Shown here in pieces: positions 27,526-29,844 of a DNA stretch of 64,000 nt. The notes beneath the pieces are model-generated. The model worked only from the letters and a program-made list of their open reading frames with translations, did not search any database and was not told the DNA's origin. The stretch comes from Microvirga ossetica. Its GTDB lineage: Bacteria > Pseudomonadota > Alphaproteobacteria > Rhizobiales > Beijerinckiaceae. Position 1 is the stretch's first letter. Each line of letters begins with the position of its first letter. The stretch covers positions 1,223,501 to 1,287,500 of the forward strand of contig NZ_CP016616.1 in NCBI RefSeq assembly GCF_002741015.1, given 5' to 3'. A program made the translations under genes and the position numbers.

Positions 27526-29844
27526 TCACCCCTCGATGCGGGAGAAATCCGCCACCGTGCGCGTCGCCTCGCGGAGGTCGTTGAGGAGCCGCAGGCGGTT
27601 GGCCCGAAGCTCCGGATCCTCCGCATTCACGGTCACCTTGTCGAAGAAGGCGTCGACAGGCTGGCGCAGGCGCGACAGGGCGCGCATCGCACCCTCGAAA
27701 TCCTCCGATTCGACCGCGATCCTCGCCTCTTCCTTGGCCTTGGCGAGAACCACGGCGAGCGCCTTCTCCTCGATCTGGCCCTGGGCGTTCACGATCTGCA
27801 GATCGGGCGCCTCGTTGTAGGCGCGTCCGTCCTTCTTCTCCTCGATGCGCAGGATGTTGGCCGCGCGGCGATAGCCGGCGAGCAGGTTCCTGCCGTCCTC
27901 CGTATCGAGGAAGCGGCCGAGCGCCTCGACGCGACGGACGATCATGAGCAGGTCGTTCTGGCCTTCAGCAGGGGTTGAGAAACTTATTTTCTCAGAGCCG
28001 ACATCTGCTCCATCAAAATCGAACACTGCATCGATGAGGTCATGGCGCGCCCCCTGATCGCGAAGAGACTGCTTAAGACGATCTGCGATGAAGCGAATAA
28101 AATTCGCCTCCATTGCCCCAATCAGGAGGAAACGTTCTGTTGGGTTGTTTGCAGGAGCAGCGTCTAAACTATGCTCAAAAACCGCATCTGGGAAACGAGC
28201 AACGGCTAAATCATAAACGTCAGAGACAGGTAGCCTGATTTCATTCTGTAGGATCAGCCTAATCACACCCAACGCCGCACGGCGCAGCGCGTAAGGATCC
28301 TTCGATCCCGTCGGTTTCTCGTCAATGGCCCAGAAGCCCACGAGCGTGTCGATCTTGTCGGCGAGTGCGACGGCTACCGCAACCGGATCGGTCGGCACGC
28401 GGTCGGACGGGCCGAGCGGCTTGTAGTGTTCTTCGATGGCAGCAGCGACGGATGCGTGCTCGCCCTGCAGGCTCGCATAATAGCGGCCCATCAGGCCCTG
28501 CAGCTCGGGGAATTCGCCCACCATCTCGGTGACGAGATCGGCCTTGGCGAGACGCGCGGCGCGTTCCGCCAGTTCAGGATCGGCGCCGACAATCGGAGCG
28601 AGTTCCTTGGCGAGCGCCGCGATGCGCTCCACGCGCTCGTATTGCGTGCCGAGCTTCTCGTGGAAGACGATGCTCTTCAGCTTTTCCAGACGGTCTTCCA
28701 GCTTCACCTTCCGGTCCGTCTCCCAGAAGAACTTTGCATCGGAGAGACGCGCGCGCACCACGCGCTCGTTGCCGCCGATGATGGTCTTGCCGCCGTCGGA
28801 CGCGATGAGGTTGGAAACGAGGATGAACTTGTTCGCAAGCGCGCCCTGCCCTCCTCCCCCTTGTGGGGAGGAGTTGGAGGTGGGGGTGTGAGCGATACGC
28901 TGGTCCAGTTCGGCGCCGGCATCCCCACCCCTGGCCCCTCCCCTCAAGGGGGAGGGGGACGGCTGGCGCAGCACGAAGCATTTCTGGTTCGCGCGGATCG
29001 TGGTGCGGATCACCTCCGGCGGGATGTCGAGAAAGGCTTCGTCGAAGGAGCCCATGAGCACCACGGGCCATTCCACGAGACCGGCGACCTCCTCTAACAG
29101 GCCTTCGTCCTCGATGAGTTCGAGGCCCTGCGCGAAGGCGAGATCCTTCGCGTCGTGCAGGATCATGTCCTTGCGGCGGTCGGTGTCGATCACGACCTTG
29201 GCGCGCTCCAGCGCCGGCGCGTAATCGTCGAAGCGCTTCACGCGGATCTCGCCGGGCGCGAGGAAGCGGTGGCCTTGCGTGACATCGCCCGTCGCGGTGC
29301 CGTCGACCTCGAAGCGCACGATTTCCGGATCCTCGGTCTCGGGCCCGAAGGTGCAGACGATGGAATGGAGCGGACGCACCCAGCGCAAGCTTCCGGGCTC
29401 GGCGGAGGCCGCGCCCCAGCGCATGGATTTCGGCCACGGGAAGGCCTTGACGATGGCCGGCAGAATCTCCGCCAGCACGTCCGGCGTCGACCGGCCGGGC
29501 TTCTCGATCACCGCGACGTAGAACTCGCCCTTCTTCGGATCGCTCTCGATCTTCGCCTGATCGATCGAAGCGAGCCCCGCCCCCTTCAAAAAGCCCTGGA
29601 TCGCGCCCTCCGGCGAGCCGACGCGCGGACCTTTGCGTTCTTCCCGCACGTCCTTCCCCTTCACGGGAAGGCCCGCGATATGCAGAGCGAGCCGCCGCGG
29701 CGTGGCGAAGGCCTTGGCGCCCTCGTAGAGGAAGCCGCGCTCGACCAGCGCGTCGGTGACGAGCTTCTTCAGATCCTCCGCCGCACGGCGCTGCATGCGG
29801 GCGGGAATTTCTTCGGAAAAGAGTTCGAGGAGAAGATCGGGCAT
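27526..29844 (-). CDS. glyS: Glycyl-tRNA synthetase beta subunit, with in-frame palindromic insert
   Basis: The 772-residue product is GlyS of the alpha2-beta2 bacterial glycyl-tRNA synthetase. It begins MPDLLLELFSEEIPARMQ and shows VRPLHSIVCTFG, DKIDTLVGFWAIDEKPTGSKD and RQGARHDLIDAV-like C-terminal features (DQGARHDLIDAVFDF). It partners GlyQ at 30467-31408. Two oddities are visible. Residues 296-332 (SPSPLRGGARGG...SSPQGGGG) are the translation of a 111-bp family A repeat, placed between KCFVLRQP and the normal continuation LANKFILVSN. Residues about 525-628 are encoded by visibly A/T-richer DNA. The length exceeds the usual roughly 700 residues. The ATG at 29844 is the family start. Confidence 0.95.
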   Translation of the reverse strand: MPDLLLELFSEEIPARMQRRAAEDLKKLVTDALVERGFLYEGAKAFATPRRLALHIAGLPVKGKDVREERKGPRVGSPEGAIQGFLKGAGLASIDQAKIESDPKKGEFYVAVIEKPGRSTPDVLAEILPAIVKAFPWPKSMRWGAASAEPGSLRWVRPLHSIVCTFGPETEDPEIVRFEVDGTATGDVTQGHRFLAPGEIRVKRFDDYAPALERAKVVIDTDRRKDMILHDAKDLAFAQGLELIEDEGLLEEVAGLVEWPVVLMGSFDEAFLDIPPEVIRTTIRANQKCFVLRQPSPSPLRGGARGGDAGAELDQRIAHTPTSNSSPQGGGGQGALANKFILVSNLIASDGGKTIIGGNERVVRARLSDAKFFWETDRKVKLEDRLEKLKSIVFHEKLGTQYERVERIAALAKELAPIVGADPELAERAARLAKADLVTEMVGEFPELQGLMGRYYASLQGEHASVAAAIEEHYKPLGPSDRVPTDPVAVAVALADKIDTLVGFWAIDEKPTGSKDPYALRRAALGVIRLILQNEIRLPVSDVYDLAVARFPDAVFEHSLDAAPANNPTERFLLIGAMEANFIRFIADRLKQSLRDQGARHDLIDAVFDFDGADVGSEKISFSTPAEGQNDLLMIVRRVEALGRFLDTEDGRNLLAGYRRAANILRIEEKKDGRAYNEAPDLQIVNAQGQIEEKALAVVLAKAKEEARIAVESEDFEGAMRALSRLRQPVDAFFDKVTVNAEDPELRANRLRLLNDLREATRTVADFSRIEG
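28849..28959. repeat. Family A 111-bp palindromic repeat inserted in frame within glyS
   Basis: The arms CCCTCCTCCCCCTTGTGGGG and CCCCTCCCCTCAAGGGGGAG with inner GGTGGGGGTG / CATCCCCACCCC match the intergenic copies at 11895 and 30332 over the same 111-bp length. 111 is divisible by three, and on the glyS strand the repeat has no stop codon, adding 37 residues (296-332 of GlyS). Confidence 0.93.

Follow-up and report, generated by a model that had tools for sequence, protein, structure and literature searches.

Palindromic repeats that lie in frame within coding sequence are best known from Rickettsia. The Rickettsia palindromic elements (RPEs) are about 100-150 nt long, palindromic, and positioned in frame in conserved genes (PMC2229807 and PMC10969869, as excerpted), and one Rickettsia protein with a coding palindrome is reported, in the excerpts of PMC2229807, to be translated and active with a changed substrate affinity. 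The bacterial MITEs (NEMIS/Correia, ERIC, and RUP) are short and non-autonomous, have terminal inverted repeats, and in some cases lie in frame in genes (PMC2229807, same excerpts). The REPs, which carry a GTAG or CGTC tag, are dispersed between genes, with some copies inside conserved genes including those of tRNA synthetases, and in recB of two Xanthomonas species REPs are found at about the same site; in REPtrons the palindromes flank the gene for a RAYT tyrosine transposase (sections of PMC3733652).

An element that can be set beside each of these systems is present in glyS, the gene for the beta subunit of glycyl-tRNA synthetase (GlyRS), within a 64,000-nt stretch of Microvirga ossetica DNA (the window; Table 1). 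The element is found in Microvirga and other Hyphomicrobiales, free-living bacteria of a different order from Rickettsia, and it is likened to the RPEs by its behavior and not by its sequence. The RPE likeness that had been proposed for it holds in that a dispersed palindrome lies in frame in conserved genes and most relatives examined lack it; it needs amending in one respect, since the insert is no isolated case and other lineages have different elements at this glyS loop. This filling of one loop by different elements, together with a candidate source gene, sets the present case apart from the RPEs. REPs are 20-40 nt in length, whereas this element is 104-111 nt and shows no constant tetranucleotide like GTAG or CGTC at either end of 30 aligned copies; as in REPtrons, palindromes flank a gene, but here the gene encodes a DUF559 protein rather than RAYT. 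Unlike the MITEs, the element has no target-site duplication that can be recognized by eye, either in filled versus empty glyS loops or in the flanks of the 30 copies, and it is presumed to derive from a nuclease gene rather than from that of a known transposase. RIME of Rhizobium, which we take to be a palindromic intergenic repeat of the same order, is likened to it by name only. Bru-RS of Brucella, also of this order, is a palindromic intergenic repeat of about 103-105 nt and is likened by description; the passages on Bru-RS (PMC2267715) hold nothing on coding insertions or DUF559. Glycyl, glyS, Methylobacterium, Microvirga, and Beijerinckia are not mentioned in the available main text of PMC3733652, and neither that paper nor PMC2229807 is among those containing both 'DUF559' and 'repeat'. 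The accessible portions of papers outside subscription journals include none on coding palindromes of GlyRS, Rhizobiales, or Microvirga, or on DUF559/Vsr with repeats, which does not imply absence from print. We favor the reading, at a probability of roughly two in three, that a short palindromic element of the non-autonomous kind has landed in frame in a permissive loop of the GlyRS beta subunit, that it is translated and tolerated, and that it is a MITE-like derivative of a unit containing a DUF559 gene.

Table 1. Features of the glyS region and copies of the element in the window
Feature	Position	Strand	Basis or remark
glyS, GlyRS beta subunit, 772 aa	27526..29844	minus	PF02092 + PF05746; no interruption across element
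Element in glyS (about residues 296-332)	28849..28959	minus	sequence, copy search, fold, loop alignment
Terminal hairpin 1 of element, CTCCTCCCCCTTGTGGGGAGGAG on +	28851..28873		read from sequence
Terminal hairpin 2 of element, CCCCTCCCCTCAAGGGGGAGGGG on +	28935..28957		read from sequence
ORF of 142 aa for a DUF559 (PF04480) Vsr-like nuclease, between glyQ and glyS	29855..30283	minus	3' end reads into palindrome
Palindromic end of another class (ACCCTCCCC class followed by GGGGTGGGGTGG), between glyS and DUF559 gene	29857..29904		sequence
Element copy, glyQ side of DUF559 gene	30321..30444		window self-comparison, spacer comparison
glyQ ORF (alpha subunit)	30467..31468	minus	ORF list; named by inspection; start position approximate
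Element copy, intergenic per original prediction	11884..12007		window self-comparison
Diverged element copy, 65%	44279..44402		window self-comparison

The 111-nt repeat lies in glyS at the position and in the frame originally predicted, and no stop is encountered across it on the glyS coding strand, so that the ORF stays open. The net gain over an empty loop is 36 residues (a 61-mer versus a 25-mer), instead of the predicted 37. A few host codons at the edges of the insert differ between filled and empty loops, and a clean element edge was looked for at the glyS site and not found. The element has terminal inverted repeats and contains no gene; on the glyS strand, 28843-28965 is predicted to fold at -81.8 kcal/mol (z -6.2 versus shuffles). 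An Rfam scan of the window gave nothing at gathering score. Both further copies that had been noticed in the window are real. In the whole genome, a search with the element yields 73 HSPs at roughly 40 places, a lower bound given that 40 of 139 candidates were scored, and its arm pattern, with two mismatches or fewer, gives 81 + 92 matches versus 0 + 0 for a reversed control. All 73 scored HSPs from this subset of candidates lie on contig C1 and none on the other five contigs; the genome's four strong DUF559 matches are on C1 as well. The suggestion that the 111-nt length is itself an adaptation does not survive comparison of the 30 best copies in this genome, which range from 104 to 111 nt and have a length that is a multiple of three in 13 cases.

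The host gene is expected to be essential. This genome has one glyS only and no match above cut-off to the dimeric type of GlyRS (best 25 bits, cut-off 243), so this glyS should be the sole source of the beta subunit. From sequence comparison the insert would sit in a loop of the beta subunit, at the short gap that separates residues 289 and 294 in the solved chain 7yse_C, consistent with a surface loop. The occurrence of the same type of insert in four other sequences (P0002, P0004, P0012, and P0121) and in genome G008 speaks against an assembly slip.

Alignment of GlyS from relatives indicates that most lack the insert, although it is not confined to one strain. (In all genome samples, G000 is the genome of the window.) Within the genus the loop is readable in 47 of 48 genomes, G034 being left out because a contig end cuts its loop. 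It is filled in four (G000, G008, G021, and G047), with 36-37 extra residues each; in the other 43 it has 10 residues, VLRDPxTGxL or close variants, and not 37 unrelated residues. In a sample of 139 genomes from the family, 130 glyS matches were obtained, of which nine, including that of the window, are split at the loop; the other 121 are unbroken and, going by their coordinates, have at most about 12 extra nt. When the loops of the filled genomes are compared, the inserts differ and represent several element types, and all are in frame. Seven of these nine inserts have a folding z of -4 or below against shuffles of two-base blocks (G000, G122, G119, G149, G082, G061, and G108). The values within the genus are -5.6 (G000), -5.8 (G008), -3.1 (G021), and -8.6 (G047), and elsewhere in the family they are -6.1 (G122), -10.3 (G119), -7.3 (G149), -4.0 (G082), -4.9 (G061), and -5.4 (G108); inserts without a clear hairpin are those of G161 (-2.6), G148 (+0.5), and G290 (-1.0). 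In a sample from the order, 133 of 140 genomes matched (one match, G228, is half a gene at a contig end), and the loop is split only in G000, G196 (74 extra residues, z -8.1), and G290 (21 extra residues). Inserts are thus commoner in the family of the window than in the rest of the order. Tianweitania populi (L082) provides a further filled loop, with a z of -6.5. Among 121 GlyS proteins, comprising the query and 120 of 8000 matches, eight have a full insert at the loop and two have remnants (P0033 and P0054); by eye, element-like inserts in this set are all at this loop and none elsewhere.

The insert of G149 belongs to a second, unrelated repeat family, similar to one of the CTCATCCTGAGG type that is dispersed in the window; it gives 40 HSPs in G149 itself and 37 in G000, most of them matching one half of the insert. 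The glyS loop therefore accepts more than one family of elements. The presence of inserts in several lineages, and the very stable hairpins predicted within the reading frame, could be taken to mean that the insert was recruited for a function, such as an effect of the RNA hairpin on translation of glyS or the provision of a useful peptide arm. We consider this very improbable: across lineages the inserts vary in sequence and in size (16-74 extra residues), remnants exist, most relatives examined have no insert, and open frames are no commoner in the element than in shuffled sequence (2.53 versus 2.70 of 6).

The filled state of the loop is recurrent, and its spread by recombination is possible. 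On a quick GlyS tree of 73 rows from which the loop was removed, the 12 filled rows need 12 state changes, which may be gains or losses, and at least eight of these are forced by starred branches. An alternative is a single origin, or a small number of origins, of the filled loop within Microvirga, after which it spread or survived by short-tract recombination of glyS, the scatter on the tree being the product of that recombination. The residues FI directly follow the loop in 10 of 13 filled or remnant rows versus 14 of 152 empty rows (duplicates were kept in this count, and P0001 and P0085 repeat genomes G047 and G021), the bases just downstream of the loop are common to G000 and G047, and G000, P0002, P0004, and P0012 have the same type of insert yet are scattered on the tree. 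However, G021 and G047 hold other elements, that of G047 in another frame relative to the palindrome, other elements again are present in other genera, and the four filled genomes of the genus share no long tract around the loop. A single or rare origin followed by recombination is thus a serious possibility, but we doubt it as the full account; we read the pattern as repeated insertion with some recombination of alleles, in shares that these data do not separate. (After the loop, filled alleles mostly read FILVSN, and most empty Microvirga alleles read FLLTSN.)

In-frame insertion is also seen in other genes, as the original prediction had proposed to check. In this genome, the small subunit of methylmalonyl-CoA mutase (MCM) has the element in frame within the linker that joins its two domains (L018:1501-1606). 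A survey of this linker in the genus (loci L277-L316) covered 41 of 48 genomes, 40 fetched plus that of the window; 32 were readable, nine being left unread by the anchors, and 11 of the 32 have an element-like peptide, partial in two. The element itself was found there by DNA in G005, G007, G033, and G045, and the linker also varies in length without elements. In cobN of G047 (L162) and P0122 the element is in frame, and the two are 94% identical; this case came from copies picked partly for long frames. In G030 (L203) the element is in frame in an RluA/RluD-type pseudouridine synthase, with a matched stretch on either side of it. Confirmed positions inside conserved genes account for two of the 30 best copies in the genome of the window (glyS and MCM) and one of 18 copies taken from G030 and G013, so insertion in conserved genes seems to be a minority outcome; glyS and MCM look over-represented as places of insertion. 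The remaining ORFs that read through copies have no Pfam match or, for several of the shorter ones in the genome of the window, were left out of the scan (L006, L008, L010, L011, L013, L014, L016, L020, and L026). At HisS-, HlyD-, XDH-, AspRS-, FabZ-, GST-, and RimM-type domains, in-frame insertion was considered and rejected; the domain starts past the element, which most likely lies upstream of the gene.

A candidate source of the element is suggested by the gene between glyS and glyQ. Its product matches PF04480 with 127.3 bits (cut-off 20.6), and the nearest solved chain is 3hrl_A (E 1.9e-19). The gene has palindromes of different classes on its two sides, with an inverted-end score of 28 (threshold 25). 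When DUF559 loci are surveyed more widely (L179-L182 and L218-L276), same-type palindromes are found beside them. Hairpins of the CCYTCYCC type are on both sides of the gene at 19 of 33 loci from the genus and 15 of 29 others, compared with one of 68 for a control consisting of the two ends of glyS; this strict count required arms of 8 or more and a distance of no more than 220 nt from the DUF559 domain, and the type was chosen after the palindromes had been seen. Taken by side, the genus loci have such hairpins at the left in 25 of 33 and at the right in 26 of 33, and their density is 3.99 per kb near the gene versus 0.10 per kb beyond 400 nt. If any hairpin is allowed, both sides are occupied at 25 of 33 genus loci, 17 of 29 others, and 6 of 68 controls; the 25 include six loci (L221, L222, L224, L226, L229, and L235) that have palindromes of the element type on one side only. 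In these six, which form one DUF559 subgroup, the opposite flank carries a hairpin of unrelated sequence, CTCGACGAGATCGTCGAG in one orientation or the other.

The left and right ends are inverted copies of one another above the 95th percentile of the control at 42 of 59 DUF559 loci. (It should be noted that 150 of 400 pairings of a left end with a right end from another locus also pass the threshold; part of the inverted-end signal thus belongs to the family as a whole.) Clear units, in which a palindrome, a DUF559 gene, and an inverted palindrome follow one another, are seen at L181 and L242 and in the glyQ-glyS spacers of G021, G025, and G034. In addition, the class of palindrome follows the DUF559 clade, with 16 changes on the tree versus a shuffled mean of 35 and none of 200 shuffles as low. 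This tree has few columns and long branches at L261, L255, and L251, whose translations may be misread; three short rows were dropped, and eight of the 62 loci, seven of them in the tree, have no palindrome class. Both halves of the 111-nt element match the ends of DUF559 units, and the element is therefore read as a MITE-like derivative of such a unit. When the loop inserts are compared with DUF559 loci, 294 of 335 matches fall within 260 nt of the domain; the Enterovirga insert (G122), for example, matches the DUF559 flank of G010 over 50 nt at 100% and a DUF559 flank in its own genome over 54 nt at 94%. Such matches show a common type of sequence and not descent. No match to the DUF559 loci was obtained with the inserts of G149, G196, and G290.

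A different view of these genes is that they encode ordinary repair nucleases, that the adjoining palindromes are terminators or hitchhikers, and that another enzyme moves the elements. The DUF559 protein VsrA of Caulobacter is indeed reported as a predicted mismatch-repair nuclease (PMC12907096, in the part available), and elements are present in genomes without DUF559: G002, G003, G043, and G044 have 6-13 element matches (13 in G003) and no DUF559 match. Across the genus, 31 of the 41 genomes that have the element, and two of the seven that lack it, show a DUF559 match of at least 85 bits (one-sided Fisher p 0.024). The excess over control of same-type palindromes on both sides, the inverted ends of the clear units, the tracking of palindrome class with clade, and the presence or absence of the DUF559 gene in the glyQ-glyS spacer all run against this different view. 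We regard an ordinary repair role with passive palindromes as a plausible but less favored explanation.

A related question is whether frequent insertion at the glyS loop reflects targeting, or local hopping of elements from a DUF559 unit about 100 nt upstream of glyS. In 13 of 48 genus genomes a DUF559 gene does lie 90-109 nt from glyS, in spacers with at least two palindrome classes, and DUF559 is near glyS in three of four filled versus nine of 43 empty genomes (one-sided Fisher p 0.046, post hoc). But in ten other filled genomes that were searched, DUF559 genes are either missing (G161), carried on a different contig, or no closer than 130 kb; two unrelated families of elements occupy the loop; and no common target motif was recognized. 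Local hopping from the glyQ-glyS unit is accordingly weak and not general, and targeting or hopping as a whole is unlikely.

Under the favored reading, the source would be the palindrome-DUF559 gene-inverted palindrome unit, and loss of the gene in a MITE-like derivative would give the 111-nt element, which would be moved with the help of the nuclease. Insertions probably land widely; selection, rather than targeting, would determine which survive, so that those remaining lie between genes or in loops and linkers able to tolerate them. One tolerant place would then be the GlyRS loop, filled repeatedly by different elements, and another the MCM linker, where an element-derived peptide is carried by several genomes. 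In glyS the element would be translated, giving 36 residues more than the empty loop, and the enzyme would tolerate them. The mobilization by DUF559, the tolerance of the peptide, and transposition rather than recombination in each case are candidate steps of this scheme. More broadly, and tentatively, at something short of even odds, DUF559 Vsr-like nucleases may mobilize an undescribed class of elements with hairpin-forming inverted ends, each clade with its own palindrome, whose gene-less derivatives would make up much of the intergenic repeats of Hyphomicrobiales and would repeatedly have added peptide loops to essential enzymes such as GlyRS.

With one loop of an essential enzyme filled in several lineages and a candidate source gene at hand, it becomes possible to test by what means the palindromic repeats of these alphaproteobacteria are moved, and how proteins can acquire coding palindromes without loss of the cell. 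Caution is also needed, as translated palindromes can pass for features of a protein. The second dispersed family, of the CTCATCCTGAGG type, is present in the window at 15002-15112 and 37435-37545.
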